A DNA stretch of 64,000 nt, taken from positions 11,454,973-11,518,972 of the forward strand of contig NC_054713.1 in the NCBI RefSeq assembly GCF_016097555.1, given 5' to 3'. This DNA comes from Gigantopelta aegis. Its lineage: Eukaryota > Mollusca > Gastropoda > Neomphalida > Peltospiridae. Below, piece by piece: positions 19,973-40,155 of this stretch; within the stretch, counting starts at the first letter, position 1; every line of letters starts with the position of its first letter. Both the position numbers and the translations under genes were made by a program. A model generated the notes under the pieces. That model made no database searches and was not told the origin of the DNA. It saw only the letters and a list, made by a program, of their open reading frames with translations.

Positions 19973-20277
19973 TAAATAAACAATTTAAATTTCAAAAATA
20001 AAGTTTCTTGAGAAATGACACCAATGACAAAACAAGTAACACCAATGACACTCAAGACTGTATCCAGGAAATACTATTATTCTTGAGACTACCACTACAC
20101 TACTTGTTAGCAAAATTATGTAATTAATATTTCCTTAAATGTTTTGGGTTTTTTTCTTCTTCTTCAACCTACAACTATTAGGCCTAAAGGCCTAAAGGCC
20201 TATTAGAATAATTGTGTCTTTCTGTATTGATAAGATACGGCCGGTCAGACAGTTTATACTAAATTCCCAATTAACAT
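19973..20277. other. no gene seen
   Basis: AT-rich; a small triplication of aggcctaa occurs near 20,180-20,203. Confidence 0.4.
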
Positions 20278-20590
20278 TGCAGTATTGGCCCAATACTGGC
20301 CCAATAAATCCAGTTCCGTTGGGCCAATATCGTCAACCAGTACTGGCCCATTAAATTCTTGCTCATCGGCGGGGTATTGGTCCATTACAATTTTCCAGTA
20401 TTGGCCCGGTATTGGCACAGTACACAAATGCATTATTGGCCCAATATATGCAGTAACATTGGGCCAATATCATCAACCAGTACAAGGCCAATATTTGTAA
20501 CCAGTACCGGTCCAATATCCTCAACCAGTACAAGGCCAATATTTGTAACCAGTACCGGTCCAATATCCTCAACCAGTACCGGCCCAATCA
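20278..20590. repeat. imperfect ~32/64-bp tandem repeat
   Basis: Words attggcccaatac, ccagtaccggtccaatatcc and ccagtacaaggccaatattt alternate. The right half is a clean 64-bp dimer repeated at least twice. The frames open on both strands are by-products of the repeat. Confidence 0.85.
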
Positions 20591-21091
20591 CAGATTATTT
20601 TTGACAAAGGTGTGCATTTTACTAGCAAAATAAATTATAAACACTGTAATACCATATTTTATTAACCTAGTACTTAACATTTCTTTCAGAAATTTTGGGA
20701 GAAAATCCTACAAGATAGGAGGTTGGATTAAATTGCATACATTTCGAAGGTAATTTTTAGTACACATGATTTTCATACCTGGGTAGTCAAAGGGTCTGCA
20801 GGCTACAAAGTTATGAATTTCTTTTATACTATATCTATGCACATGATTTTACCAAATGTATTGTTTCAATACCACACTATTATGCATGTTTAATTTAAAC
20901 ATAAGCTGTCCATAAAGCACTTCGACCACAAATTGTATGTATTGCATTGTATAAATGTGTTATGTAATTGTGTGATTATTGCAGGTGTTTACACACCAGG
21001 GCAGTCCGGACATTCTTTTCAGACAGCGTTGCTTCAACTTCCTGCACAGAAACAAGCGGTAGATTAAGCCCTTCCAATACATGTTCTGTTT

Positions 21092-21225
21092 CTACATGCT
21101 GGGATGTCCCTCCAATTTATTCATTATGGTGTTCATTTGTTTCCGTTGCCATTTTAATTCCTTTGTTATACCATCCAAAGACACCTGGATGCCTGAGATG
21201 GCTTTAAGCATCTCTCTTTCGACAC
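21092..21225 (-). CDS. gene X, terminal exon (unrecognised protein)
   Basis: I do not recognise gene X. This exon encodes VEREMLKAISGIQVSLDGIT and then KELKWQRKQMNTIMNKLEGHPSM with a TAG stop. The whole is an amphipathic, coiled-coil-like C-terminus. The acceptor is ...attaatag and the exon opens with two bases (GT). The exon at 22317 ends CAA A in front of GTATGT, giving a serine codon across the junction; this phase agreement supports the model. Similar short coiled-coil tails end many invertebrate multi-copy nuclear proteins derived from transposons, but that link is only a guess. Confidence 0.6.
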
Positions 21226-21540
21226 CTATTAATAGAATAATTTTAATATGTTTACAAAGTTACAAACTAATTTAAAACCAAAATTACAATAAAGAATATA
21301 CCAGAATACAATAATGTGTGAAATATAAAGTCAATACTAATGCCAAGCTATTTAAATGTAATTTTCAACAAGTTAATCATTTTGTTCAGGGCAGTTCTTA
21401 AGTCTTATTATACCCGATACTTTGGGTGATGTTGGTGTTTTCATTCTAGGGAATGGTACAATGTTTTCGTGAGAAGAGGACCCATTTGAAAATTACGAAA
21501 CAAAATATTGCTGAATTTTATTTTAAAATACATGCATTGG

Positions 21541-21862
21541 AAGGAAATGTTTTATTTAACGACGTACTCAACACATTGTATTTACGGTTATATGGCGTCG
21601 GACATATGGCTTAGGACCACACAGATACTGAGAGGAAACCCGCTGTCGCCACTTCATGGGCTACTCTTTTTCGATTAGCAGCAAGGGATCTTTTATATGC
21701 ATCATCCCACAGACAGGATAACACATACCACAGCCTTTGATATACCAGTCGTGGTGCACTGGCTGGAGCGAGAAATAGCCCAGTGGGGCCACCGACGGGG
21801 ATCGATCCCAAACCAACCACACATCAAGCGAACACTTTACCATTGTGCTAAGCCCCGCCCCT
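21541..21862 (-). repeat. tRNA-derived SINE, type B
   Basis: The tail is at left (gaaatgttttatttaacgac) and the tRNA-like head at right (ggggcttagcacaatgg on the minus strand). It lies in the last intron of gene X. Confidence 0.9.
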
Positions 21863-22316
21863 ACATACATTGGTTACATATTTTTGGCTAAAAAAAGGTA
21901 TCATAACATTAAGCAAATATTGAATGTATTATCAAAAGCTATGGGTCGAAGGCAATATCAGTTGGGATTCCCAACTGAGTAATATATACTCAGAAGATAG
22001 AAAATGGCTTAGCCAAATTTTAGCCACTTGCAAATTTTATTAGCCATTTGTTGTAAAAAGATATTAGCCAATGGCTAATTTGGCTACCGACAGCGCGAGC
22101 CCTGGAGTATACTCTTCCATTATCACATATCTATTGACCAATCAAACTGTAGTAATTAACCTAATATACTAGAAGAATTAATCATATATTTTTCCAAACA
22201 GAATGATTAAAAATCATTTCATTTTTTATAAGTATTTATTGTATTTGTATTCCACATGGGGTGTCACTAAGCTCATTTAAAATCATATACAATGCATATG
22301 TATATGTCACACATAC

Positions 22317-22578
22317 TTTGGGAAATTCTTTGAAAGCGCTGAATTAGTGTTTCTCTGGGAAGAAATTCATTTAGATCAGATCCTGTGCCTCAGGTTGTTT
22401 AAGACGAGATTCTACAGAACTTGATTGATGACATTCAGCCTGTGTATGTGATGTGGACTGCAGAGAATGGAGTAAAGACTCTGGGGATTGCTCTGACAAC
22501 ACTATCATGTTAGGTATAGGTGGTGTGGGTGGGGCCCTTGTGAGACGTCCAGCATATTTGTGGTTAACAGCAGATTTG
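22317..22578 (-). CDS. gene X, right-hand part of an exon split by a transposon
   Basis: Reading on the minus strand from the TTAA at 22579-22582, the frame gives KSAVNHKYAGRLTRAPPTPP and continues through ...SVESRLKQPEAQ. There is no acceptor at its left border; the border is the end of a TTAA element. If the element and one TTAA are removed, the exon at 24466 joins it in frame (GTT AAC AAA). At the other end, GSDLNEFLPRETLIQRFQ leads to a GTATGT donor whose phase fits the terminal exon. The two halves of this segment are, however, in different frames: the first runs into TAA within ~10 codons of LKQPEAQ. So this allele seems to carry the insertion and one frameshift. Likely a disrupted host gene. 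Confidence 0.55.
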
Positions 22579-24465
22579 TTAAAGGAAGGAACAATTAAGG
22601 CATTTGGCCTGGTATGCATATTCAACGATATATAATGCACATTATTGCTTAATATCAACAAGTATAATCGTATAGTTAATTAATAAAATGGTTAAATGTG
22701 ACGGCTATTATATATAACGGGGGCAGCCATTTTGTACCATCTCGCGTAACGTCAGGAATGAGCCTTAGAACTAGAGAACACAATCTACCTGGTTTTTGCG
22801 GGATGATAAATAGTCATACATTGCAATGTTCTGTAATAATACACATCCCAGTAAGCCAGCAATAAGTATATTCAGCACTATATATATATTATTTTTCAAT
22901 ACAAAATAAAATACCATTGTCAAAGTGGCTGCACAACAAGTCGAAATAATTAACTATGTTTTGTCCATGCATTAACCTACATACTGAAATGATACACAGA
23001 GTGTTTTCTTAGTTAATTGGTCTATGCTGTTAGTTGCTTCTACCTGTGATTCCTGATTGGCAGGTGTGTATTTGATTGGTAACCAGACGAGCCAATTAAT
23101 TGACGCTGTCTAGACACAAAAATACATACCGGTATTGTGGAATATTACCTGTCACCCCTAAAATGGTAGTGGACATGGTTTATTACTGTAAATAGTTCTG
23201 TAAAACTATTGATTAAGTAGACTTTTTCATCTAAAACCACAGAACTGACCAATTACGTAGTCCCAAAGAAAAAACAATTATCACTTGGGTATCGTGAGTT
23301 GTTGTTTTTGCTCCAACGTAGCATATCAATAGGCCTAATAGTGTATGTTTTTCCTTTGGATTATTTAACAGAGAAAAATACTATAACCCCATTTTGTTCC
23401 GTTAATGCAACTTGAAATATATTTAGTTAAATAGTTTATTATTATATTACGTTAATTATGCTGTTTTACAAGTCAGGTTGATCAAAGAGAAGTGCCTTGT
23501 CGTAAATTACTGCTTTTGTTTACACTGTACATACAGGATATGGTCAGGAGCTGACGTCACTTCGCCCCAAGCTATCCCACCGGACGTAACAAAAACGAAA
23601 CAAAATGGCTGCCCCAGTTAGCAGGAATAATCATGTTTTTTCATTCACTCTAAAATTACGCGTTTTTCATTTGCTAAAGTGTCGGTATGTGTTGGTGGTC
23701 CGGGTATGCATCTTTCCAACACATAAGGCTCTTGTTTGAGTTGACCCTACCTTTAAAGTGTCGGTATGTGTTGGTGGTCCGGGTATGCATCTTTCCAACA
23801 CATACGGCTCGTTTGAGTTGACCCTACCTTTAAAGTGTCGGTATGTGTTGGTGGTCCGGGTATGCATCTTTCCAACACATAAGGCTCTTGTTGGAGTTGA
23901 CCCTACCTTTAAAGTGTCAGTATGTGTTGGTGGTCCGGGTATGCATCTTTCCAACACATAAGGCTCTTGTTGGAGTTGACCCTACCTTTAAAGTGTCGGT
24001 ATGTGTTGGTGGTCCGGGTGTGCATCTTTCCAACACATAAGGCTCTTTTTGGAGTTGACCCTACCTTTAAAGTGTCGGTATGTGTTGGTGGTCCGGGTGT
24101 GCATCTTTCCAACACATAAGGCTCTTGTTGGAGTTGACCCTACCTTTAAAGTGTCGGTATGTGTTGGTGGTCCGGGTGTGCATCTTTCCAACACATAAGG
24201 CTCTTGTTGGAGTTGACCCTACCTTTAAAGTGTCGGTATGTGTTGGTGGTCCGGGTATGCATCTTTCCAACACATAAGGCTCTTGTTGGAGTTGACCCTA
24301 CCTTTAAAGTGTCGGTATGTGTTGGTGGTCCGGGTATGCATCTTTCCAACACATAAGGCTCTTGCTGGAGTTGACCCTACCTTTAAAGTGTCGGTATGTG
24401 TTGGTGGTCCGGGTATGCATCTTTCCAACACATAAAGCTCTTGTTTGAGTTGACCCTACCTTTAA
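22579..24465 (-). mobile_element. TTAA-flanked element, copy 1, inserted in a gene X exon
   Basis: It is bounded by TTAA (22579-22582 and 24462-24465). The ends read ttaaaggaaggaacaattaa and, from the other side, ttaaaggtagggtcaactc. The body (22583-23676, with tgacgtcacttcgccccaag near 23,553) has no transposase frame. A second, inverted copy is at 25738-27278. The ~79-bp terminal segment next to 24461 is amplified ten times (separate entry). TTAA specificity suggests mobilisation by a piggyBac-like enzyme; that is family knowledge, not seen here. Confidence 0.8.
23677..24461. repeat. 79-bp minisatellite, 10 copies, made of a transposon end
   Basis: The unit contains gtcggtatgtgttggtggtc, tgcatctttccaacacataa and gttgaccctaccttta. 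The inverted copy of the element at 25738 has this segment only once, so the array arose by tandem growth within copy 1. Frames open on both strands all through it because 79 is not a multiple of three and stops are rare; they are not genes. Confidence 0.93.
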
Positions 24466-24545
24466 CTTTCTTGGTCGGATTGGGTTTGTATGTCTCATCA
24501 TCGTCATCCTCGCTACTGCTACTAGATAACTGTTTCTTCTTGCGT
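24466..24545 (-). CDS. gene X, left-hand part of the split exon
   Basis: After a tttacag acceptor, the exon opens with A (completing AA|A from the previous exon). It encodes RKKKQLSSSSSEDDDDETYK and then PNPTKKV up to the TTAA where the transposon starts. It has a basic patch, a serine run and an acidic run, as in disordered linkers of nuclear proteins. The only donor-like site here, AAAG|GTAGGG, is formed by the transposon end itself. Confidence 0.65.
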
Positions 24546-24574
24546 CTGTAAACAAATAATGGTAAAAACATTTT

Positions 24575-25129
24575 GAAAAAAAATCACGTTTGATTAAATT
24601 TCCAATTTGGTTATTTTGGCACACATGCAATGTGCTAAAATGGTACAACGTATCCAAAAGGTTCATGATATTTTCCAAAATGATTTCGATCATTGTAATA
24701 TAGATATAGAGATAGAGATAGAGATAGAGATAGAGATAGAGATAGAAATAGAGATAGAGATAGATAGATAGATCAGATCAAACATTTTAAATAGGAAAAA
24801 ATCACGTTTGATTAAATTTCCAATTTGGTTATTTTGGCACACATGCAATGTGCTAAAATGGTACAACGTATCCAAAAGGTTCATGATATTTTCCAAAATG
24901 ATTTCGATCATTGTAATATAGATATAGAGATAGAGATAGAGATAGAGATAGAAATAGAGATAGAGATAGATAGATAGATCAGATCAAACATTTTAAATAG
25001 GAAAAAATCACGTTTGATTAAATTTCCAATTTGGTTATTTTGGCACACATGCAATGTGCTAAAATGGTACAACGTATCCAAAAGGTTCATGATATGTTCC
25101 AAAATGATTTCGATCATTGTAATATATAC

Positions 25130-25197
<68 letters not shown>

Positions 25198-25237
25198 ATA
25201 TGTAGATAGATAGATCAGATCAAACATTTTAAATAGG
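24575..25237. repeat. triplicated ~220-bp unit with (GATA/GAGATA)n and (AT)n cores
   Basis: Three direct copies start near 24,575, 24,797 and 25,002. Each contains tcacgtttgattaaatttcc, acatgcaatgtgctaaaatg and gatttcgatcattgtaatat, and ends with gatcagatcaaacattttaa. The first two carry gagata repeats. In the third this is replaced by a ~64-bp AT run (25,127-25,190). It lies in an intron of gene X. Confidence 0.93.
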
Positions 25238-25386
25238 ACTGTTCACACATCAGGATGACACATCATCAATTCTGGCCTAGAGGTAGGATGGAGGGGGGGG
25301 GGGGGGGGAGAGAAATACTTCTCTCTGAAATCTCTTGAACACCCAACCACATCTTTCACATAAAGCTAGATACGCCTCTGAAGCCT

Positions 25387-25741
25387 TTAAAGTAACATTC
25401 CTGAGTTTGCTGCAAGTTTTAAGATGTTATCGACTAACAATTGTAATTACATATCAAATATATTGTTTCTGCATAAAATATTAGTGGCTGTATATTAAAT
25501 GTGTTTCTGATCGTACTAATATTTGTACTAGGTTAAATTTCATTTTATTTCCTCAAAAATGTTTTTCGTACATACAAAATTATTTTAAGACAAAATCCAG
25601 TTTGGGCTTCTTAGAAATATTAAGATGACCAGAAACGCATTGAATATACAGACGCTAAATAAGAAAACATATTTAATCGTAGAAATATTGTATTAGTCTA
25701 AAACATCTTACAATCAAGCAAACTCAGGAATGTCCCTTTAA
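25387..25741. mobile_element. TTAA-flanked MITE, 355 bp
   Basis: Terminal inverted repeats ttaaagtaacattcctgagtt / aactcaggaatgtccctttaa, with a few mismatches. TTAA lies at both ends. Its right TTAA (25738-25741) is shared with the next element, so the two lie back to back. Confidence 0.88.
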
Positions 25742-27278
25742 AGGTAGAGTAAACTCAAACAAGAGATTTATGTGTTGGAAAGATCCATACCCGGACCACC
25801 AACACATACTAACACTTTAACAAATGAAAAACGCGTAATTTTAGAGTGAATGAAAAAAACATGATTATTCCTGCTAACTGGGGCCAGCCATTTTGTTTCG
25901 TTTTTGTGACGTCCGGTGGTATAGCTTGGGGCGAAGTGACTTCAGCTCCGTCCATCTGCTCTATGCACAGTGTAAATAAACGCTCTAATTTACGACAAGG
26001 CGCTTCGCTTTCATCAACCTGACTTGTAAAACATAAATGACTTGATTTAGAGAATAACTAACGAGCTACGAGGAATTATGAATTATCTGTCCCAAGTGAA
26101 TGAATGTTGTAAACCCGAGCCTTTGGCGAGGGTTTTACAACATCATTCACGAGGGACAGATAATTCGTAACTCCTCGTAGCGAGTTGGTTATTCTCTTTA
26201 TTACCCATTGTCAATTTTAACTGAATTTTAATGTAATAATATTCCTCTGCAGTCTACAACAAAGCCATCAGCCATTACGTCATATAATCTTATGCGCTAC
26301 ATGAGTCTTATTTGTTTTTGTAAATCTTTGTAGATCGTATAACGTATGTGTAATCTGACTCATGAATGGAAACATTATATGAATGAAAGTGAAGTTCCGG
26401 CCATGCCAAGCAACCAACCAAACGTCGTGATTTTTAAGCCAGCCAATCAGTGGCTGTAGAAGCAATCTGCACACTGTGCAGAGATCGAAAAAATATAACC
26501 CTGTATATTTGAGCCCATATGCTACGTTTGAGCAAAAACGACCACTCACGATACCCAAGTGATAATTTTCTTTTCTTTGGGACTACGTAATTGGTCAGTT
26601 TTGTGATTTTAAAGTCTACTTAATCAAGGGTTTTACAGAATTACTAACAATAATAAAGCAAGACGGCTGATCGATTACGATTAGAGGGGTGTCCGTGCGG
26701 TTAAAACACAATACCCTGTGATCTTAATAAAAGAGGCACATCTTTTTAGTGGGTCTAGACTCAGTGTCTTGGGGCCGTCTAAATATACACCTGCCAATCA
26801 GGAATCACAGGTACAGGCCACGGAAAGAAACAACCAATTAACTAAGAAAACACTCCGATTATTATTTCAGTATGTGGGTTAATTTATGTACAAACCATAA
26901 TACAGTTATTTCAACACTTTGACAATGGTGGTTTATTTTGTATTAAATATAATATATAATTGTTGCTGGCTTACTGGGATGACTATTATTACAGAATATT
27001 GCGATGCATCCGCAAAAATCAGGTATGTTTTGTTTCTTGTGTTCAAAGACTAATTCCTGACGTGACACGTTAGGTATTACGTAACCACCAGCTCGCCAGA
27101 GGGCGTATTCACTGGGATGGTACAAAATGGCTGCGCCCGTTATATATAATAGCCGTCACATTTAACCGTTTTATTAATTAACTATACGATTATACTTGTT
27201 GATATTAAGCAATAATGTGCATTATATATCGTTGAATACGCATACCAGGTCAAATGCCTTGATTGTCCCCTCCTTTAA
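25738..27278 (+). mobile_element. TTAA-flanked element, copy 2, inverted relative to copy 1
   Basis: It begins ttaaaggtagagtaaactc and ends ttgattgtcccctcctttaa. Segment by segment it is the reverse complement of 22579-23757: cacctgccaatcaggaatca here against tgattcctgattggcaggtg there; also cccaagtgataattttc and ataatgtgcattatatatcg. It is ~350 bp longer, mainly because of the foldback insertion at 26049 and the sequence after it. It lies in an intron of gene X. Confidence 0.85.
26049..26198. mobile_element. foldback (hairpin) element, ~150 bp
   Basis: gagaataactaacgagctac at the left pairs with gtagcgagttggttattctc at the right, and the pairing continues inward (attatctgtccc / gggacagataat; gttgtaaaaccc-type words) around a ~10-nt loop. 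A similar structure with agagaataact ends lies at 61064-61208. Confidence 0.8.
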
Positions 27279-27338
27279 AGTAAACTGTGAACTGAAAGTT
27301 TAAAACTATTATTGGTAATAGGCCTTGTAAATACTCAC

Positions 27339-27441
27339 TTTCGAATTAGTCTGCCCATCACCAGTGCCTCCTCAGGATCTGTTTGAAGATCAGACTGGTC
27401 CTCTGCCAACTTTAACTTCCGATGTTCATCAGCATAGGTTG
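27339..27441 (-). CDS. gene X, internal exon
   Basis: The exon encodes TYADEHRKLKLAEDQSDLQT and DPEEALVMGRLIR between an acceptor (ctatgtag) and a consensus donor (GTGAGT). It has 33 full codons with two bases on either side. The trailing AA joins the A at 24545, keeping the frame. It opens with two bases of a codon, so an earlier exon must end with one. The exon at 27724 ends in phase 0 and does not fit directly. Charged, predicted mostly helical; no domain recognised. Confidence 0.62.
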
Positions 27442-27723
27442 CTACATAGATAAATATTGGGCACAGTTTTAATAACTGACATTTTTAAAATTAAAACAAT
27501 CAATTGCCTGAAATTGCATTGGTATGAAACTTGACTGTTCCTCCATAGCGGAAACAACCAGTGCCCATACAATTTAAGCCGACTAGACAAACATGGTTAC
27601 TTTGTTTTGAAAATGATTATGGGCCAATAGTACTTTGTTTTTGCATAACATTTTGTTCGAATATACTAAACACATTTTGATATATTGCTTTAATGCATAA
27701 AGAATGTTACGTAAGTGACATAC

Positions 27724-28206
27724 ATCCTTTTTTATACTAATTAGGTTGCCAGTAGACAATAATGTCCTTGGATCTTTTGGTAAATCAGGCTGAAATTTGG
27801 CCAAAATACCTAATAATGCTCTTAAAGAAATATGGGATATTTGATTTTCAACGGACCATTTCGCTAAGAGAACTGGAAGTTCTTCATCAATGGGTCCACC
27901 TATATCAATGTAATCATCATTACTGTCTGAATGTTGATCTGACTGATCTGATAGTTGTTCATGTTCACTGTCAGTAAATGCATCTTGTGGTGCATTAAAC
28001 TCAGATTCTCCATCACTTTCTTCATCAATTTGAAAATGTGTATCTATAATTCCACCACAAGGCACCCTAACTGACACAACAGGTTCAACATTATTCAAAA
28101 TGTTAATATCTATTTCTTCATCACTTTCATCTGTTTCTATGGCAATATCATGTAGATGTGCCTCTACTTTAGCATTCATTTTCCTTCGTTTTGTCCAGTA
28201 AGACAT
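27724..28206 (-). CDS. transposase-associated repeat protein, N-terminal exon
   Basis: From M at 28206 the frame runs MSYWTKRRKMNAKVEAHLHD, then an acidic Asp/Glu/Ser-rich stretch, then WSVENQISHISLRALLGILA and LPKDPRTLLSTGNL. A helical segment followed by L-P-x-D-x-R-T-L-L is a motif I recall from many multi-copy invertebrate proteins annotated as transposase-domain or uncharacterised. It probably belongs to a transposon-derived family. A GTATGT donor follows AAG GAT (phase 0). It may be the first exon of gene X, but the phases do not match the exon at 27441, so either an exon is missing between them or they are separate. About 161 codons. Confidence 0.5.
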
Positions 28207-29012
28207 ACTAGCTTTAGTATTAATTGTTTTGGTGATATTATATCGACTTGAAACTAACCATGCATCAAATAAAACCTGTAGACAATCTATGAATATCACA
28301 TATAGCTACTATTCAGGTAAAATTATTAAATATACCTGGTATTAATACAGGCCAATTTGGCAATCTCACGGAGTCAGACTGTGACAGTAATTTATCTGGT
28401 TCAAATTGTCACTGACGAAGGATGAATAATATTTAATGCCAAGTGGACACTATGTTTTAGCAAACCATTATCGGAAGGCAGCAATTGTGCAAGATGAGTG
28501 ACGATTTTGATGCCAATCTTTGCATTGCTGCATGGCCTCAATTATAACCAGGCAAATAAATATTAAAATTTGATATTTATTTTATAACAAAGTACATTAA
28601 TCAATATTATATTTACGTCCAACTTTACACGTAACTTGCGTTTTTGTTGTTTCGTGAATAGCTCTTCAGTCGTAGATTTACGTTTACGTGTAAAACTAGG
28701 CTTACGATGTTTTGTGAATATGGGTCCAGTACTGTTTTGCCAGTACACGGATCTTTAACTTGTTACAGTATTTTGTATCGGCACGTATGTATTGCGCCGT
28801 TCAACATTTTCAGTTGTTAAAAACAACTACATGATAAAATATATATTTCTGAACTATGCACAATGGACGAACACTTTGTTTAATTCTTTTTTTTTTTCTT
28901 TTTTTTTTAAATGAAAACATCAATTTGTCCAGTGTTCCGGTATGGTCCTCATGTTACCAACGGTTCCACAGGGAATGCCTTTTTTTATACTATGAAATTT
29001 ACTACATGTTAT
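28207..29012. other. no gene; dispersed repeat at 28617-28725
   Basis: 28617-28725 is the inverted partner of 43256-43365 (acgtttacgtgtaaaa, cttcagtcgtagatttacgt). T-rich runs lie near 28,888-28,908. No other exon candidate. Confidence 0.5.
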
Positions 29013-29517
29013 TTATTTCTGAACCGATTGTTTTATAAATTGGACACAAAAAATAGCCTTACGTTTCCGGTTCCTTTTCTGTTGTCTGACAGGAAGAGGT
29101 GAGAGAGCTCGATTAAAGCCCTTCGTATTTACCACAGCAATGACAACTGAATTTCCTGGGGTAGGTGTTGGGCCAGGATTATTAGATCTAGCAAGACGTT
29201 CTGTTGTCTCATCATTCTCAAAGCCTGATACATTTCCTGGGGTAGGTGTTGAGCCTGGCGTATCAGATCTAGCTGGACTTTCTGTTGCCTCACCATTCTC
29301 AGAGTCTGATACAATTCCTGGGGTAGATGTTAGGCCTGGACTATCAGATCTAGCTGGACTTTCTGTTGTCTCGTCATTCTCAGAGCCTGATACATGTCCT
29401 GGGGTAGGTGTTGAACCTGGCGTATCAGATCTAGCTGGACTTTCTGTTGCCTCACCATTCTCAGAGCCTGATACATTTCCTGGGGTAGGTGTTGGGCCTG
29501 GCATATCAGATCTACTA
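29013..29517 (-). CDS. P/T/S/E-repeat exon and basic C-terminus, truncated locus copy (copy 0)
   Basis: Five 81-bp units encode the 27-residue repeat (SPARSDTPGSTPTPGNVSGS-type). After these comes a unique tail, SVVIAVVNTKGFNRALSPLP and a K/R-rich end, then TGA near 29013. The right border at ~29,517 is where the next copy of the locus begins (cagatcta joins ctacgcaatac), so the head of this gene copy is missing. It may serve as the last exon for the neighbouring copy, but no phase-compatible acceptor was confirmed. The plus strand is open too; the minus strand is favoured because the phase-matched exons of the complete copies lie there. Confidence 0.4.
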
Positions 29518-29718
29518 CGCAATACTAAATTCCCCGTAAACCGAAACTGGAAGTTGTATTTGTTGACAGTTACCAAGAGTTACATAAATAATAAATAACA
29601 TTTACTTTTGTACTAATAATCAGTGGCATAGGAAGGTGCTAAAAAGTGGGGGGTGGCACACTTTTACACTATTATCAAACAAATATAAAGCAAACTATCT
29701 GAAAAGTGGAAGGCTCAC

Positions 29719-30180
29719 CATTCTCAGAGCCTAATACATTTCCTGGGGTAGGTGTTGGGCCTGGCGTATCAGATCTAGCTGGAATTCCTGTTGCCTCACC
29801 ATTCTCAGAGCCTGATACATTTTCTGGGGTAGGTGTTGGGCCTGGCGTATCAGATCTAGCTGGACTTTCTGTTGCCTCACCATTCTCAGAGCCTGATACA
29901 TTTCCTGGGGTAGGTGTTGGGCCTGGCGTATCAGATCTAGCTGGAATTCCTGTTGCCTCACCATTCTCAGAGCCTGATACATTTCCTGGGGTAGGTGTTG
30001 GGCCTGGCGTATCAGATCTAGCTGGAATTCCTGTTGCCTCACCATTCTCAGAGCCTGATACATTTTCTGGGGTAGGTGTTGGGCCTGGCGTATCAGATCT
30101 AGCTGGACTTTCTGTTGCCTCAACATTCTTAGAGCCTGATACATTTCCTGGGGTAGGTGTTGGGCCTGGAACCAGGGATT
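29719..30180 (-). CDS. ParB-like gene, copy A, repeat exon
   Basis: Second exon of the gene that starts at 32122. The acceptor is cgtccacag, followed by AA TCC CTG GTT; the leading AA joins the G left by exon 1 to give glutamate. It encodes SLVPGPTPTPGNVSGS and six 27-residue units of the type PARSDTPGPTPTPGNVSGSE, probably a flexible disordered arm. It ends GAG AAT G in front of a good GTGAGC donor, so another exon should follow. Every unit carries the similar sequence AATG|GTGAGG, so alternative donors are possible. The left border runs into a MITE fragment (gaaaagtggaagg). No function can be assigned to the repeat. Confidence 0.55.
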
Positions 30181-31731
30181 CTGTGGACGACGTAATAATG
30201 CATGTCTTACACAATCGTCATTGTATGCAAATTCAAAAATTATATAAGGGTGTATACTATCAAATCAAATCCCATAGACGACAATAGTAACATGTGGCTA
30301 AAATCCCTACCTGCATCGCATCAATCGACATAAACGACACGGATATAAATACTACCACCCCTCACCCTTGAAGTGAATCAGAAAAAAATTGGGGGGTTAA
30401 GCTGCTCATTTCTGAGATAAAGGGTAGCGTCTATGACTACCCTAGTTCTGCACAAAATTCGAGTACGTTTTTTTACAGGTACCGCTTACATGTTCCAAGC
30501 ACAAGGCTACTTGACACAGTGGTATTAGATGAAATAAAACTGCATACATTTTTAGCCCAGATGAAACTAATTTTGTTTACAACCAACACACTCATATTTA
30601 TAGCCAATCACAGGACTTGTGGTGTTCACTTCTCTATCAAAAATTTCGATGCACCTCAAACTTTGACCCAGCCGGAAGTTATTTGGTTTAGTACTACCAC
30701 AAGTGGGGCAAAGAGTGCCGTCCCCAGCGCTCTTTGGCCCAATAGGGGTGGCACGCTTTGCCTCAATGGAAGACTTATGAAATATGCTGAATTTCTAAAA
30801 TTGAAAAGTCCGTCTCGCATTGAAACCCACCTAAACAGAACTGCTAATTACTGAATATGATCAATTTTAAGATTCCTTGTGGATTCATGCCTTAAAACGC
30901 AAACAAAACATACATAGATAATCACTATTTTTGGATTTTCATAGCTCTTGCCTATAGTTAATGCTTTAATGACGGTAACTTGATGTCGGATGGTGGACAA
31001 CGTCACTGCTCATTGATTGGATTGTTCCGGCAGTGCCACCTAACGATCATTTCTGAATAAATTAAGTGGGTTGCTTTGCCCGACCGGTGCGGTTTACCCC
31101 GCTCTCCCCTACATGTAACGCGTATGCCAACCGCTGGCCACTGTCAAATTTTCAAGGCAAATCCCCCACCAACCCCTGGAAAGGTGTTGTACCATACCTC
31201 TATGGATATAAATATGTTTTGGAGATATGAGACGACCCCTCGATCAAGGCAGTTAAATTTGTTCAAAATCACGTGAGAAGCTCAGCGCCAGCGCAAATCA
31301 CGTAAAGTCCCAGTTCTACTGGCGTCCCGCTAAATGAAGAAAAACAAAGCTGGCCGTTGCGTTTGTAGTTGACCTAGATAATGTAGATAAGCGAGCATTG
31401 CGAAATTATAGCGATGTGGTGGACCTTTTATGTACCAAATAGAACTGAATCATCTATTCTAAATGCTTAAATAATAAAAATATTCCAGGGACTGCAGCTT
31501 TAAGTCACTTGAGCTCTAGGACAGACACACGGATAAACCCAGTTCAATCTATAAACATTGTTTTATAGGCATGTCTGGTTTCTTTGGAGCACATACAACC
31601 TTATCAAAGCATACATTCAACTCCGCCTTATGCAGAGATGCGGTTTGGAATTAGGTATTTATTTTGTTACAAAACTACTAAATAAATAGTACAAGCATAT
31701 TAATTTAACTAATTTAACAAACGATATATAC

Positions 31732-32122
31732 CTTCTTTGTGCTGTTTAATAATGTTTGTAAATTTATCATCCATAAGAGAATCTTTACGAATACTGATGG
31801 ACTTTCCACCGTTATGAGTCGTATGCTTTTTTTTTAAATAGACTGAATCAAACGGTTTCATATTCACTTTCACTTTATTCACTAAACCAGCCAATTCCAT
31901 TTTTTTCAACAGGTACAAACGGCGATTGCCGTCTACAACGAAATATTGTCCTTCATAGGTCATCACGTCCATTGGTGAAAAGACATCTTCTGGTTTCGTG
32001 GATCCCAATACGTTTTTCAAAGACGAATCCAAAGTCTGACGATTTCGAAATTTATTTTTTACACTCTTTTGTGCATGCAACAGTTCTGACGGTCGAAAGT
32101 CACGGTACATTGTGACACACAC
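31732..32122 (-). CDS. ParB/sulfiredoxin-fold-like protein, copy A, first exon
   Basis: 130 codons plus one base from ATG at 32122 to a GTATAT donor. The core shows FRPSELLHAQ, RNRQTLDSSLKNVLG, then FVVDGNRRLYLLKKMELAGL and VNKVKVNMKPFD. The succession of a start such as F-x-x-x-x-h, a helix (Q-T-L-D-S-S-L), a strand and then the V-D-G-N-R-R-L-Y-x-L-K helix resembles the ParB/sulfiredoxin-like domain of small eukaryotic proteins with the D-N-R-R-L signature. ParB relatives bind nucleotides or DNA, and sulfiredoxin repairs peroxiredoxin; which of these applies here, if any, is unknown. No sulfiredoxin catalytic cysteine motif is seen. A second possible start is the M at codon 5. The partner exon with repeats is 1.55 kb downstream, in phase. 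Confidence 0.6.
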
Positions 32123-32448
32123 TAGTACTTTGTGCAGCGAATATTAAATATTTTATAACTTATTTTATCTCGCCGAATGTTTCTCTGTTGGTGTTTGAAT
32201 ATTCAGTCTGTATACAGTCCATTGCCTTACGGTACATGAAATGAAACCTAAATCGTGTCCTTAATTCATGAATGTTCGATTCCAAGAAATAAGCTACTAC
32301 GCAATACTAAATTCCCCGTAAACCGAAACTGGAAGTTGTATTTGTTGACAGTTACCAAGAGTTACATAAATAATATATAACATTTACTTTTGTACTAATA
32401 ATCAGTGGCATAGGAAGGTGCTAAAAAGTGGGGGGTGGCACACTTTTA

Positions 32449-33149: not shown

Positions 33150-33211
33150 CACACTTTTACACTATTATCAAACAAATATAAAGCAAACTATCTGAAAAGT
33201 GGAAGGCTCAC

Positions 33212-34078
33212 CATTCTCAAAGCCTAATACATTTCCTGGGGTAGGTGTTGGGCCTGGCGTATCAGATCTAGCTGGAATTCTTGTTGTCTCACCATTCTCA
33301 GAGCCTAATACATTTCCTGGGGTAGGTGTTGGGCCTGGCGTATCAGATCTAGCTGGAATTCTTGTTGCCTCACCATTCTCAGAGCCCGATACATTTTCTG
33401 GGGTAGGTGTTGGGCCTGGCGTATCAGATCTAGCTGGACTTTCTGTTGCCTCACCATTCTCAGAGCCTGATACATTTCCTGGGGTAGGTGTTGGGCCTGG
33501 CGTATCAGATCTAGCTGGACTTTCTGTTGTCTCACCATTCTCAGAGCCTGATACATTTCCTGGGGTAGATGTTGGGCCTGGAGTATCAGATCTAGCTGGA
33601 CTTTCTGTTGTCTCACCATTCTCAGAGCCTGATACATTTCCTGGGGTAGGTGTTGGGCCTGGCGTATCAGATCTAGCTGGACTTTCTGTTGTCTCACCAT
33701 TCTCAGAGCCTGATACATTTCCTGGGGTAGATGTTAGGCCTGGAGTATCAGATCTAGCTGGACTTTCTGTTGCCTCACCATTCTCAGAGCCTGATACATT
33801 TCCTGGGGTAGATGTTAGGCCTGGAGTATTAGATCTAGCTGGACTTTCTGTTGCCTCACCATTCTCAGAGCCTGATACATTTCCTGGGGTAGATGTTAGG
33901 CCTGGAGTATTAGATCTAGCTGAACTTTCTGTTGCCTCACCATTCTCAGAGCCTGATACATTTCCTGGGGTAGGTGTTGGGCCTGGCGTATCAGATCTAG
34001 CTGGACTTTCTGTTGCCTCACCATTCTCAGAGCCTGATACATTTCCTGGGGTAGGTGTTGGGCCTGGAACCAGGGATT
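33212..34078 (-). CDS. ParB-like gene, copy B, repeat exon
   Basis: Same design as 29719-30180, with acceptor cgtccacag, leading AA, and end AATG before GTGAGC, but with eleven 27-residue units (about 288 codons). All length differences from copy A are whole 81-bp units, so the frame is kept. Units differ mainly at a few positions (GLTSTPG against GPTPTPG; ESPAR against RIPAR or ESSAR). It is rich in Pro, Thr, Ser, Glu and Gly, without Cys or aromatic residues in the repeats, and therefore probably unstructured. Confidence 0.55.
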
Positions 34079-35597
34079 CTGTGGACGACGTAATAATGCA
34101 TGTCTTACACAATCGTCATTGTATGCAAATTCAAAAATTATATAAGGGTGTATACTATCAAATCAAATCCCATAGACGACAATAGTAACATGTGGCTAAA
34201 ATCCCTACCTGCATCGCATCAATCGACATAAACGACACGGATATAAATACTACCACCCCTCACCCTTGAAGTGAATCAGAAAGAAATTGGGGGGTTAAGC
34301 TGCTCATTTCTGAGATAAAGGGTAGCGTCTATGACTACCCTAGTTCCGCACAAAATTCGAGTACGTTTTTTTACAGGTATCCCTTACATGTTCCAAGCAC
34401 AAGGCTACTTGACACAGTGGTATTAGATGAAATAAAATTGCATACATTTTTAGCCCAGATGAAACTAATTTTTTTTACAACCAACATACTCATATTTATA
34501 GCCAATCACAGGACTTGTGGTGTTCACTTCTCTATAAAAAATTTCGATGCACCTCGAACTTTGACCCAGCCGGAAGTTATTTGGTTTAGTACTAGCGCTC
34601 TTTGCCCCAATAGGGGTGGCACGCTTTGCCTCAATGGAAGACATATGAAATAAGCTGAATTTCGAAAATTGAAAAGTCCGTCTTGCATTGAAACCCACCT
34701 AAATATATGTAATAGAACTGCTAATTACTGAATATGATCAATTTTAAGATTCCTTGTGCATTCATGACTTAAAAGGCAAACAAAGCATACATAGATAATC
34801 GCTATTTTTGGATTTTCATAGCTCTCGCCTATAGTTAATGCTTTAATGACGGTAACTTGACGTCGGATGATGGACAACGTCACTGCTCATTGGTTGTATT
34901 GTTCCGGCAGTGCCACCTAACGATCATTTGTGAATAAATTAAGTGGGTTGCTTTGCCCGACCGGTGCGGTTTACACCGCTCTCCCCTACATGTAACGCGT
35001 ATGCCAACCGCTGGCCACTGTCAAAGTTTCAAGGCAAATTCCCCACCGACCCCTGGAAAGGTGTTGTACCATACCTCTATGGATATAAATATGTTTTGGA
35101 GATATGAGACGACCCCTCGATCAAGGCAGTTAAATTTGTTCAAAATGACGTGAGAAGCTCAGCGCCTGCGCAAATCACGTAAAGTCCCAGTTCTACTGGC
35201 TTCCCGCTAAATGAAGGAAAACAAAGCTGGCCAATGCGTTTCTAGTTGACCTAGATAATGTAGATAAGCGAGCATTGCGAAACTATAGCAATGTGGTGGA
35301 CCTTTTATGTACCAAACACAACTGAATCATCTATTCTATATGCTTAAATAATAAAAAATATTCCAGGCACTGCAGCTTTAAGTCACTTGAGCTCTAGGAC
35401 AGACAGACGGATAAACCCAGTTCTATCTATAAACATTGTTTTATAGGCATGTCTGGTTTCTTTGGAGCACATACAACCTTATCAAAACATACATTCAACT
35501 CCGCCTTATGCAAAGATGCGGTCTGGAATTAGGTATTTGTTTTGTTACAAAGCTACTAAATAAATAGTACAAGCATATTAATTTAACAAACGAATAC

Positions 35598-35988
35598 CTT
35601 CTTTGTGCTGTTTAATAATGTTGCTAATTTTATCATCCATACGATAATCATTTCGAATACTGATGGACTTTCCACTGTTATGAGTTGTATGCTTTTTATT
35701 GAAATAGACCGAATCAAACGGTTTCATATTCACTTTCACTTTATTCACTAAACCAGCCGATTCCATTTTTTTCAACAGGTACAAACGCCGATTGCCGTCT
35801 ACAACGAAATAGTGTCCTTCATCGGTCATCACGTCCATTGGTGGAAAGACATCTTCTGGTTTCGTGGATCCCAATACTGTTTTCAAAGACGAGTCCAAAG
35901 TCTGACGATTTCGAAATTTACAGTTTACACCGTCTTGTGCATGCAACAGTTCAGACGGTCGAAAGTAACTGTCCATTGTGACACACAC
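35598..35988 (-). CDS. ParB/sulfiredoxin-fold-like protein, copy B, first exon
   Basis: Exactly the same length (130 codons plus one base) and splice phase as copy A. The core FVVDGNRRLYLLKKMESAGL is kept, as are RNRQTLDSSLKTVLG and VNKVKVNMKPFD. By eye about 30 bases differ from copy A; around five are silent and most of the others change the amino acid, mainly near the start (YRD/DSY, KSVKNK/DGVNCK) and at the end. Loss of constraint or selection for change could both explain this. The intron of ~1.5 kb leads in phase to the repeat exon at 34078. Confidence 0.6.
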
Positions 35989-36743
35989 TAATACTTGGTG
36001 CAGCGAATATTAAATATTTTATAACTTATTTCTGTTGGTGTTTGAATATTCAGTCTGTACAAAATACATTGCCTTACGTGTCCTTAATTCTTGAATGTTC
36101 GATTCCAAGAAATAAGCTAGGGGAAGCTTGGGAGAGTTGGGCCACTTTTCACATTTTAACATATTGCAATCTTCCTATTCATGGCCGATAATTGCTTAAT
36201 GTGATTATGACATGTACAGATATTAAAATACATATATGTACTAGCTGGTTCCGTATGCAGGCCAACCTGTAGAAGGTGAAGGTGATTTTCAAAAGGTGTC
36301 ATTTTGGCCCAACTCTCCCTGGGGGTGGTGAGAGTTGGGCCATGTTCAAGGAGAGTTGGGCCACAAAAGGGAGACTTGGGACAGAAAATGTACAGAATAA
36401 AACAACTATCCAGTGAAGGAAAATGGTCTCAATTTATTTCCAAACTTATAAAATGACCCTTTAAACAGCATGTAACTAGAAAAGTATCGTTCAGATCCCA
36501 AACAGAAGCTTAAAAACAATATTGAGAATCATAGTCAATCCCATGACTACGAGTAGGTACAATTGGTCCAGTAGCACTCCACTAGGACGAATCAACTTAA
36601 ATCGGTAAAATATTCAAGTTCAATAATGTTTTAATGATGTCACTGATAGCTTGGTTAGAAAAGTACTTTCAGTGTAACAATCGGAGAAAAATAATACTGA
36701 TGATGTGAAATTCACAGAAAGTGGTGGTAGGTTTATTGATGTT

Positions 36744-39527
36744 TTAATAAAGGGATGAGTGGAAATCCCATAGTGTGAAGTCACAAGGAAATGAAAATTT
36801 TCCTGCTCGACGAGCTGTGCCACCAAGCTGTTTAGGCGCAGGAAGCTTCTTGATGATGTCATTCTTAGGAAATGATGCATTATCATTGTTGTTGATGCAA
36901 AATGTAGGTGTCGTCTGCTGACGACTGAATTCTCGTTTAAGGAAAACCCCTTCACACACATTCCCATCAATGACATCAATCCGTGCTATATAATGCACAA
37001 TACGTGATTTGGCAGACTCAAATTTTACAACTGCAAAATCACCTTCAATAATTTCACAATCTAGGTCATCAACATCGCTATCACCACTTTCTGTGAATTT
37101 CACATCATCAGAACCACTTTCCTCTGATGAAGTTGATGGAGTTTGGCATTTTTTTGCTTTACTTTTAAACAACTTCTTTCTTGCTTTGGGTTTGACTGGT
37201 TGTTTGGCCTTCCGTTTGTTAGTTTGACTGGCAGCTAGTGCCTCAGCTATACTATTGCGTACTGGGGTATTGGTTAAAATTTTTGTATCCCCTCTTTTGC
37301 GACCTCTGTTGGTGACTTTTCGTGGCCCAGCTTTTGGCAGTGGAACAATATCAGCAGGTGATACATAAGTGTTACTTGGCCCTGGTTGGGAAGCTGGTGT
37401 TCCTAGGGAACTTGGACCTGGTTTGGCAGCTGGTGGTTCTGTAGTACTTGGACCTGGCTGGACAACTAGTGGTTCTGTAGTACGTGGACCTGGCTGGGCA
37501 GCTGGTGGTTCTGTAGTATGTGGACCTGGCTGGACAGCTGGTGGTTCTGTAGTACTTGGACCTGGCTGGACAGCTGGTGGTTCTGTAGTACGTGGACCTG
37601 GCTGGGCAGCTGGTGGTTCTGTAGTATGTGGACCTGGCTGGACAGCTGGTGGTTCTGTAGTACTTGGACCTGGCTGGACAGCTGGTGGTTCTGTAGTACG
37701 TGGACCTGGCTGGACAGCTGGTGGTTCTGTAGTACGTGGACCTGGCTGGATAGCTGGTGGTTCTGTAGTACTTGAACCTGGCTGGACAGCTGGTGGTTCT
37801 GTAGTACTTGAACCTGGCTGGACAGCTGGTGGTTCTGTAGTAGTTGGACCTGGCTGGACAACTAGTGGTTCTGTAGTACGTGGACCTGGCTGGACAGCTG
37901 GTGGTTCTGTAGTACTTGAACCTGGCTGGACAGCTGGTGGTTCTGTAGTACTTGAACCTGGCTGGACAGCTGGTGGTTCTGTAGTACTTGAACCTGGCTG
38001 GACAGCTGGTGGTTCTGTAGTAGTTGGACCTGGCTGGACAACTAGTGGTTCTGTAGTACGTGGACCTGGCTGGACAGCTGGTGGTTCTGTAGTACTTGAA
38101 CCTGGCTGGACAGCTGGTGGTTCTGTAGTACTTGAACCTGGCTGGACAACTAGTGGTTCTGTAGTACGTGGACCTGGCTGGACAGCTGGTGGTTCTGTAG
38201 TACTTGAACCTGCCTTGGGGGTTTCAGTGGTTTGTTCAGAAGGAACTAGCAGTTCAACATTTCCCTCTAATTCCTCTGGAAGATCTCTATTAGTTATTGT
38301 GGCTGGCGCAAAGTCGGTTTCACTGAACACATCCCGGTTGTAGGGGTAAATTCCTGTACTTTGAAACGCAGAAATAATGTTTTTGGCAGTAAGACCATGC
38401 AACTGAGCATGAGAAGTGAATTCAGGGATTTCATAGATCGTAATTGTTTTTCCTGGATTTGAACGCATCCAATTTTCAACAGCTCGAGCATATGCCGTCT
38501 TGAAAGGTTTAAAACAGCTCACATCCAGAGGTTGTAACTTGTGACTAGTGTGTGGTGGTATTGTTAATAATATTACACCATTTTCTTTAGCCAAGTCGAT
38601 GACTGCAAGAGAGATATGAGTCTCGTGATTATCTAAGATCAGCAAAACTTTCTTCTCCTTGCTGCATCTTGTATGGCGTATGAAATGTTTCAGATAACCC
38701 AAGAATAGCTCTTCATTGATCCATCCACTTGGATTTGCACCTCCAATACACCCGGGGGGACCATTTTTGGTGAAATAATCTCGGACGTTTTTCCGTGGGA
38801 AAATAAGCATTGGTGGAACGACGCTACCTGCCGCGTTAATGGTGTACACGGCGGTGACAAGTTGCCCCTTTTCTGCAGAGGTGATTGACCCCACTTGTTT
38901 AACTCCTTGTTTAGCCACAATGTTTTCAGGCGGCGAAACTGTAGTACACCCCGTCTCGTCGCAGTTGTAGATATCATGACATTCAAATTTGTGCAGGTCC
39001 ATAACTTGTCCGAGGTTATCATAAAATTTGCCAACGTTATAACGATTGAAGGCACTTGCCCTGGCGAGAGATGTTGCCTCTGGTGTTCGGATTGCAAGAT
39101 GATTTCTTTCTTTAAATGATATCCAAAAGTGTTCACCAGTCATTCCATTTTCTTTCCACGAATTAGGCACCGTCACATTGTTTCTCATAGCATATTCAAA
39201 AATCAGTGAGCGACATTTATTCCTACTAAGTCCGTGAAATTGTTCCGCTAAAGTCTTGATATGTGTCGCCAAGTCATCTTCCATCACTGCAGAAAAAATC
39301 ATGTTTGTCAGTCGACATTTTTCATAGCCAAAAGCTTCATTTCGTTCATCATGCTGTCCAGTTTGTGCATTACACTTATCCATGTATCTCGTGAGGGTCA
39401 TTCTTGCAATATTAAAGTCATTAGCAGCTGCACGGATGCTACTTCCTCCCTTTACTTGTTCACTTGCTCTATGTAGAACGTCCTCTGGTGCCCCTCTATT
39501 GGATATTCTTTTATATTTTCGTGGCAT
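36744..39527 (-). CDS. pogo-type DDD transposase with internal 12-residue repeats
   Basis: A 927-aa transposase for cut-and-paste at TA. The start is taken at MPRKYKRISNRG, which follows an acceptor-like tttttttcag; the frame stays open 33 codons further upstream. Order (counted from this start): a psq-type helix-turn-helix at ~10-50 (RAANDFNIARMTLTRYM); a CENP-B-like second DNA-binding region to ~170; and the DDE_1 core with IYNCDETG (D190), LLILDNHETH (D299) and HKLQPLDVSCFKPFK (D335), spaced 35 residues apart. Next come 23 repeats of the type GSSTTEPPAVQP at ~438-712, a K-rich segment (KRKAKQPVKPKARKK), an acidic run (EESGSDD) and a C-terminal part, EGDFAVVKFESAKSRIVHYI, that looks like a small beta-barrel (Tudor- or SH3-like) domain. 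No stop or frameshift. The repeat arm is unusual for the family. Confidence 0.93.
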   Translation of the reverse strand: MPRKYKRISNRGAPEDVLHRASEQVKGGSSIRAAANDFNIARMTLTRYMDKCNAQTGQHDERNEAFGYEKCRLTNMIFSAVMEDDLATHIKTLAEQFHGLSRNKCRSLIFEYAMRNNVTVPNSWKENGMTGEHFWISFKERNHLAIRTPEATSLARASAFNRYNVGKFYDNLGQVMDLHKFECHDIYNCDETGCTTVSPPENIVAKQGVKQVGSITSAEKGQLVTAVYTINAAGSVVPPMLIFPRKNVRDYFTKNGPPGCIGGANPSGWINEELFLGYLKHFIRHTRCSKEKKVLLILDNHETHISLAVIDLAKENGVILLTIPPHTSHKLQPLDVSCFKPFKTAYARAVENWMRSNPGKTITIYEIPEFTSHAQLHGLTAKNIISAFQSTGIYPYNRDVFSETDFAPATITNRDLPEELEGNVELLVPSEQTTETPKAGSSTTEPPAVQPGPRTTEPLVVQPGSSTTEPPAVQPGSSTTEPPAVQPGPRTTEPLVVQPGPTTTEPPAVQPGSSTTEPPAVQPGSSTTEPPAVQPGSSTTEPPAVQPGPRTTEPLVVQPGPTTTEPPAVQPGSSTTEPPAVQPGSSTTEPPAIQPGPRTTEPPAVQPGPRTTEPPAVQPGPSTTEPPAVQPGPHTTEPPAAQPGPRTTEPPAVQPGPSTTEPPAVQPGPHTTEPPAAQPGPRTTEPLVVQPGPSTTEPPAAKPGPSSLGTPASQPGPSNTYVSPADIVPLPKAGPRKVTNRGRKRGDTKILTNTPVRNSIAEALAASQTNKRKAKQPVKPKARKKLFKSKAKKCQTPSTSSEESGSDDVKFTESGDSDVDDLDCEIIEGDFAVVKFESAKSRIVHYIARIDVIDGNVCEGVFLKREFSRQQTTPTFCINNNDNASFPKNDIIKKLPAPKQLGGTARRAGKFSFPCDFTLWDFHSSLY
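37381..38215. repeat. 36-bp coding minisatellite inside the pogo transposase gene
   Basis: 23 units of 36 bp (ggttctgtagtacttg + gacctggctggacagct on the plus strand) encode 12 residues each on the minus strand. The first-position variants (SS, PR, PT, PH, PS) and PPAVQ/PLVVQ/PPAAQ recur in blocks, e.g. higher-order sets of four to five units, a sign of unequal exchange. The plus strand is open too, only as a mirror. Confidence 0.95.
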
Positions 39528-40155
39528 CTGAAAAAAAATACTGACATCACTAAAGCAAACTTGAAGAAACATTTCAGTATAATATGCAGTACTTTGATCT
39601 AGGCCCACAATAATTCTCCCACACACTATCTGTTAATAATAATCCTTAACAGCATGTAGTCAAATTAATAAGCTTTAGAGAAAGGATTATTCATCAAATG
39701 TAAATAATGGGAGAGTTGGGACACCATGCGGGGAGAGTTGGGCCATTGCCCAACCCTCCCACCCTGGACTGTCCCAACTCTCCCAAGTCTCACCATTTTT
39801 AATTTCAACCAAATTTTTATCTTGGGCGGTGATCACATGGATTTCAAAACTGCCTTGATGGAAGAAGACTGTCACAGCTATCACGCAGAATACACTAGAA
39901 CAGTGTTCTATATACTGTTTAAGAGATATAAAAATGCTTACCTTGGAGTAAAAATTGTGTCTTTTGTGCGAAAAATGTATTTTTGTCCACAATATATGGA
40001 CAAGAGCCTGGAAATTCAAGTCCCTTATATCAATAGAAAGATAATGCTTAGTGCTTCAAATAGATGGCAGCACCTGTCTCAAACAACGAGCTATGACAAT
40101 GATATTAGGGGTGGCTCAACTCTCCCTGTGGCCCAACTCTCCCAAGCTTCCCCTA

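Follow-up and report, generated by a model that had tools for sequence, protein, structure and literature searches.

The window, a stretch of 64,000 nucleotides of Gigantopelta aegis, carries on its minus strand the remains of a DUF4806-type gene, the exons of which are numbered here as in its paralogue on contig C8. Exon 2 (27339-27441) was recognised by its frame, its splice scoring and its match to C8, and exon 4 (20997-21225) by alignment to C8 and C5. Between them, exon 3 is found in two halves, both delimited by splice scoring and by alignment to C8 and C5: an upstream half at 24466-24545, with the acceptor TTTACAG/ACGC, and a downstream half at 22317-22578, with the donor CAAA/GTATGT. 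The halves are separated by element A (22579-24465, plus strand), a non-autonomous TTAA transposon of 1887 nt including a TTAA on each side, which reads TTAA-AGGAAGG...CCCTACCT-TTAA and which the paralogues at C8 and C5 lack. The two copies of the target site (22579-22582 and 24462-24465, plus strand) were placed from the sequence, from other copies of the element and from the alignment to C8. The original prediction had read this arrangement from the letters: an element bounded by TTAA between two exon segments, each with one good outer splice site. Both points held, the acceptor at 24545 scoring in the 97th percentile and the donor at 22317, which is fair, in the 93rd, by matrix scoring.

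When the element and one TTAA are left out, exon 3 is joined from 80 + 4 + 262 nt, and its frame stays open over 288 nt, matching the phase of exon 2. We compared it with the window's own genome, a single assembly of 1,149,253,464 bases (1.15 Gb) in 5,216 contigs, where its translation has seven matches. One of them, C8:40719553-40719849, covers residues 31-129 and runs open, without a break, through the point of insertion. At the DNA level, window positions 20587-22582 align to C8 40717781-40719758 and positions 24462-24705 to C8 40719755-40719996, and the two blocks overlap by exactly four bases, TTAA (window 22582 corresponds to C8 40719758, and 24462 to 40719755). The C8 exon has no stop, its acceptor and donor sequences are identical to those of the window, and the main alignment blocks are 91-97% identical. 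A more diverged copy at C5 is also uninterrupted at the insertion point, where it reads CCTAAT instead of TTAA; its exon has extra repeats and one stop. Searched with up to two mismatches, the 26-mer of the empty site has a single hit in the assembly, at C8, and at this threshold the assembly yielded no further allele of the window locus that lacks the element. The window thus has a split exon with a doubled TTAA, and empty sites lie in the same genome. The claim that removal of the element and of one TTAA restores one exon, in one frame and in the right phase upstream, is borne out by the uninterrupted C8 exon, and the empty site that the original prediction suggested looking for exists as a paralogue with a single TTAA.

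The nature of the interrupted gene can be assessed at C8. When C8 exons 4 and 5 are joined at inferred splice sites, they match DUF4806 (PF16064; E 2.2e-7, 31.6 bits against a cut-off of 25), in agreement with our first presumption that the gene was DUF4806-like. The window pieces gave nothing usable against Pfam and NCBIfam, and no DUF4806 match, because most of the domain is missing there. The PF16064 model run on the genome gave no match, and it found none of 14 controls either, which makes this no proof of absence. Upstream of exon 2, C8 has a plausible candidate for an N-terminal exon within 40721533-40721321 and, terminating about 3.4 kb before exon 2, a 556-codon open frame that encodes 547 amino acids from its first ATG. 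That this product is transposase-like is an assumption with no database match behind it: it has no significant match in Pfam (the best is DUF1258, E 0.018), and its structure model, with a mean pLDDT of 29.4, is useless. Both genes would be carried by one larger DNA transposon with CCC..GGG ends, the C8 unit of which measures 12.4 kb and is bounded, by computed positions, by CCCAGTAAACATGGG near 40726866 and by ..GCAATGTTGATTGGG at 40714479. Two-gene CACTA/EnSpm-like DNA transposons pair a transposase gene with another gene and carry repeated motifs close to their ends. The larger unit resembles them in its two genes and in the TTGGGCCAATA-like motifs repeated near its ends; it differs in that the ends, CCCARTNAACAT, are not CACTA, no Pfam transposase is matched and no target-site duplication is seen.

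A number of arguments favour the hypothesis that the DUF4806-type gene belongs to this larger transposon. First, a search with its 3' end, which in the window lies at 20266-20540 (minus strand, ...GGGCCAATACTGCAATGTTAATTGGG), found 12 matches, which fall at eight loci; seven of these share the end point, and the sequence beyond it differs. Second, a search with the 5' end gave 18 matches; the end at C8 corresponds to query position 4, and two C10 loci together with ten short matches in a C4 array begin at position 3 or 4, the matches at C3 and C7 begin at 7 and 9, and those at C9 and in the window fall short of the end. Sharply bounded inverted-repeat ends of this kind are found at several loci. 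Third, C8 exons 4 and 5 have 12 matches at seven loci, and six of the seven (C8:40717553, the window, C10:50464324, C10:86639749, C4:39050193 and C8:17494558), on four contigs, have one of the recurring ends within 3.5 kb and in the same orientation. This pattern would be the expected trace of a low-copy two-gene DNA transposon, and the broken gene is most likely one of its genes, not the host gene that it had been called. The alternative, a true host gene that was segmentally duplicated and happens to lie near unrelated repeated ends, is improbable. It would account for the resemblance of the window and C8 copies to a duplication, given the identity of their main blocks, for the few gene copies found in the assembly and for a C8 unit without a visible target-site duplication. 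It would also suit the seventh locus, C8:67463735 (66% identical), and the C5 gene copy, neither of which has a unit end among the matches listed. It fits poorly with one of the ends lying in the same orientation at six of seven loci, and with a 3' end point shared by seven of eight. Against the transposon, the C8 unit shows no target-site duplication and its two ends match at only 19 of 26 positions; among the loci seen, only C8 has both ends. At C7, the first gene is split between frames behind a shortened 5' end, and neither the DUF4806 exons nor the 3' end was found. The remnant of the larger unit in the window spans 20266-28794.

If the gene belongs to the larger transposon, the window would hold one decayed copy of it, which, set against C8, carries a 5-nt duplication and lacks one G and two stretches of about 4.2 and 3 kb. 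In the downstream half of exon 3, GATCT is doubled (22373-22382, minus strand, from the alignment), which shifts the frame into a TAA at 22371-22373; it is single in C8 and C5. In exon 4, one G is missing near 21108-21110. An alignment break at 20540-20587 (minus strand) leaves unmatched about 3 kb of C8 (40714762-40717781) in which the last exon lies, along with most of the DUF4806 domain. A second break, at 27746 (minus strand), leaves 4.2 kb of C8 (40720938-40725183) unmatched, including the probable N-terminal exon and the greater part of the first gene; what remains of the first gene, at 27746-28206 (minus strand), corresponds to about the first 154 of the 547 codons in C8. The original prediction of a disrupted copy with added decay agrees with these two frameshifts and with the absence of the first and last exons. 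Some of its details do not: the frame was said to change once downstream and it is lost twice, and exon 4 was taken as terminal where C8 has a further exon beyond it. As judged from these alignments, the gene copy would be broken even without element A, and it probably yields no intact protein.

The same decay weighs on the suggestion that the element has to be spliced out, which we consider very unlikely to describe the locus. Under this reading, element A, alone or with part of the exon, would be removed as an intron from the donor-like site at its own end, giving a shortened product. The donor AAAG/GTAGGG at the border was rightly attributed to the transposon end: with the last exonic base at 24460 (minus strand, by splice scoring), it is in the 99th percentile of 4,008 minus-strand GTs with the splice matrix. 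When each AG between 24440 and 22317 is tried with it, five of 113 give a join that is open to the exon donor at 22317, namely 22388, 22382, 22352, 22338 and 22327 (36th, 70th, 67th, 23rd and 82nd percentile), and the first three of them put that donor in the phase of exon 4, past the GATCT duplication. On paper, element A could thus be bypassed by a cryptic splice. However, none of the five acceptors is strong, the best one is in the wrong phase, and all five joins remove exon sequence along with the element. None of the open joins uses the two strongest AGs of the exon, 22457 (98th) and 22354 (92nd), and four further AGs (22501, 22492, 22480 and 22411; 34th, 66th, 75th and 69th) read in frame to the TAA at 22371. 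Finally, the frameshift of exon 4 would stay in any such product, and the last and probable first exons would still be missing.

The open frame of the joined exon is by itself only suggestive because random joins give it not very rarely: when pieces of the window were joined at random 200,000 times, 2.9% of the joins had some open frame and 1.5% were open in the set frame, and those with both halves open were in frame in 34% of cases. The question is settled because the C8 paralogue has an uninterrupted exon with exactly one TTAA. The chance that the segments represent distinct, ordinary exons with accidental TTAA borders is therefore negligible, even if one good splice site is present in either half and frame continuity is common enough once both are open: the paralogues at C8 and C5, in which two exons around an ordinary intron might have been seen, each show one exon, the empty site at C8 is incompatible with two, and both ends of the element recur in 26 other complete copies.

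A genome search with the stretch 22317-24545 gave at least 42 matches (40 of 4,742 first-look candidates were scored), and we examined 28 copies of element A (L002-L029, the window copy being L002), mostly top-scoring matches and therefore no random sample; 27 are complete and one (L023) stops short of the left end. TTAA is present on both sides of 26 of the 27 complete copies, the exception having TTGA on the left (L019), and the empty site has one TTAA, as expected of target-site duplication. The termini are AG..CT in all 27, the right end reads AGGTA in all 27, and the left end is AGGAA or AGGAG in 26 (AGCAA in L010). Judged by eye, the flanks differ between copies except in L006 and L027, which have matching 12-nt flanks and sit in the same TTAA of apparently one dispersed repeat. 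The family consensus has about 1.22 kb, and the copies are 97.2-98.6% identical to it (97.2% for the window copy). The family looks non-autonomous because the longest open frame of the consensus has 73 codons, and it is present in high copy number.

A TTAA target with 5'-RR..YY-3' termini is the signature of Kolobok in PMC9587614 and PMC6004289, the former of which sets such termini apart from those of piggyBac. The ends of element A are not of the piggyBac type, AG..CT being RR..YY, and all 27 complete copies have RR..YY termini next to the TTAA. By target and ends, element A is a Kolobok/T2-type non-autonomous element, which would presumably be mobilised by a Kolobok-like transposase. The T2-MITE Xmix/Xstir of Xenopus, of the Kolobok superfamily, shares the TTAA target and AG..CT termini according to PMC6004289, and the left end of element A, AGGAA or AGGAG, fits its AGGRR rule; both families are non-coding and have many similar copies. 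The right end, AGGTA instead of AGGRR, breaks the rule in all 27 copies, the consensus of element A is about 1.22 kb, and we therefore call the element T2-like and do not file it as T2. In what PMC9587614 describes, KolobokP of bivalves and other animals resembles it in the 5'-RR..YY-3' termini and in forming multimers, and differs in carrying direct repeats of around 450 or 660 bp at its ends and in showing no marked target preference, whereas element A has a 79-bp repeat at one end only and targets TTAA. Among viral contigs, the test applied showed no relative of either protein, and there was no match to the 20-mer of the element end. One bacterial contig (L001) matches this 20-mer, which we attribute to chance (about 0.5 matches are expected by a rough count, and the context is unrelated by eye), and it was left out of the copy comparison. 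Neither element A nor DUF4806 as a transposon gene was described in the titles and beginnings of abstracts searched, which is weak evidence.

The window copy is distinguished by its right end, where ten head-to-tail copies of the terminus, each ending in CCTTTAA, form an array at 23675-24465 (plus strand) with a period of 79 bp (one of 77). Among the 27 complete copies, the number of right-end units is one in 22, two in two, three in two and ten in the window copy. Each unit carries the terminal TTAA and a strong donor-like site, and the array contains ten instances of the motif AAAGGTAGGG. The exact unit-unit junction is found 137 times genome-wide (106 + 31), nine of them in the window, and its reversed control not at all. 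The arrays recur in the family, because junctions are present at no fewer than 13 loci among the first 100 places listed of 137, and the recurrence of the 79-bp right terminus in this form points to a transposon end turning satellite-like; the longest array among the matches listed is at C8:54516252-54518378, and another is at C6:12269359-12270652. In the window copy, the right end has expanded to ten units, probably through slippage or unequal exchange between the internal TTAAAG and the terminal TTTAAAG. Tandem repeats on MITEs are already known from Xstir in Xenopus (PMC6004289), from coral CMITEs (PMC2872659) and from PMC6947457. Xmix also has an amplified internal tandem segment, Xstir, whereas the amplified unit of element A includes the terminus itself, and the two are likened by features alone. 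The coral CMITEs form tandem arrays that the authors of PMC2872659 preferred to explain by replication slippage; they differ in that full-sized elements are repeated and that CMITEs are linked to piggyBac.

Two further elements, in the intron that separates exon 2 from exon 3, bear on the order of events. MITE C (25387-25741, no strand assigned), the two ends of which read TTAAAGGGACATTCC... and TTAAAGTAACATTCC..., is shared with the C8 copy and therefore predates the split between the two. Element B (25738-27278, minus strand) is an inverted, divergent relative of element A, 82% identical to the A-family consensus and absent from C8; it is positioned at the terminal TTAA of MITE C and has a single right-end unit with an internal TTAAAG before it. 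It contains a palindrome at 26049-26197, with 73-bp arms that are 79% complementary and 3 nt apart, which has no counterpart in A. Since C8 lacks both A and B, the simplest reading is that they arrived after the window and C8 copies separated; the alternative is that both were excised exactly from C8. The divergence of B does not date it, because at 82% to the A consensus it probably belongs to another subfamily.

Taken together, these observations make it very probable that a TTAA element is nested in a decayed copy of a two-gene larger DNA transposon. The process would have involved 1) the insertion of element A at a TTAA in exon 3, with duplication of the TTAA, most likely as a precise and ordinary nested insertion into a dead transposon copy; and 2) the insertion of its relative, element B, at a TTAA in the intron. 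Of the original interpretation, the exon split at TTAA by a transposon, in frame and in a decayed copy, stands; the host gene is not supported, and the splicing out of the element is not shown. A clean nested insertion with its empty site offers a worked example of how frame continuity and TTAA borders can be read from raw sequence, and is also a warning that an apparent host gene can prove to be a transposon gene. If the larger unit is indeed a transposon, a DUF4806 gene inside it would give a testable context for a family of unknown function. We hold in about equal measure belief and doubt in a broader conjecture, that DUF4806 proteins serve, at least partly, as the second protein in an undescribed lineage of animal DNA transposons, which end in CCCARTNAACAT and encode a transposase-like partner of 547 aa, and that the TTAA family repeatedly arrays its own right terminus.

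Other features of the window include two arrays with an 81-bp period, open in several frames (29013-30217 and 33168-34115), that are followed by similar frames of 143-144 codons (31709-32143 and 35578-36009); the resulting pairs, 29013-32143 and 33168-36009, look like a local duplication. At 36744-39632 (minus strand), a frame of 962 codons encodes a DDE_1 transposase domain (E 1.1e-21) and holds about 23 copies of a 36-bp repeat (12 aa, TTEPPAVQPGP-like). At 44567-45634 (plus strand) lies a 355-codon Tc1-like transposase frame (DDE_3, HTH_Tnp_Tc3_2), possibly a recent copy because it is uninterrupted.
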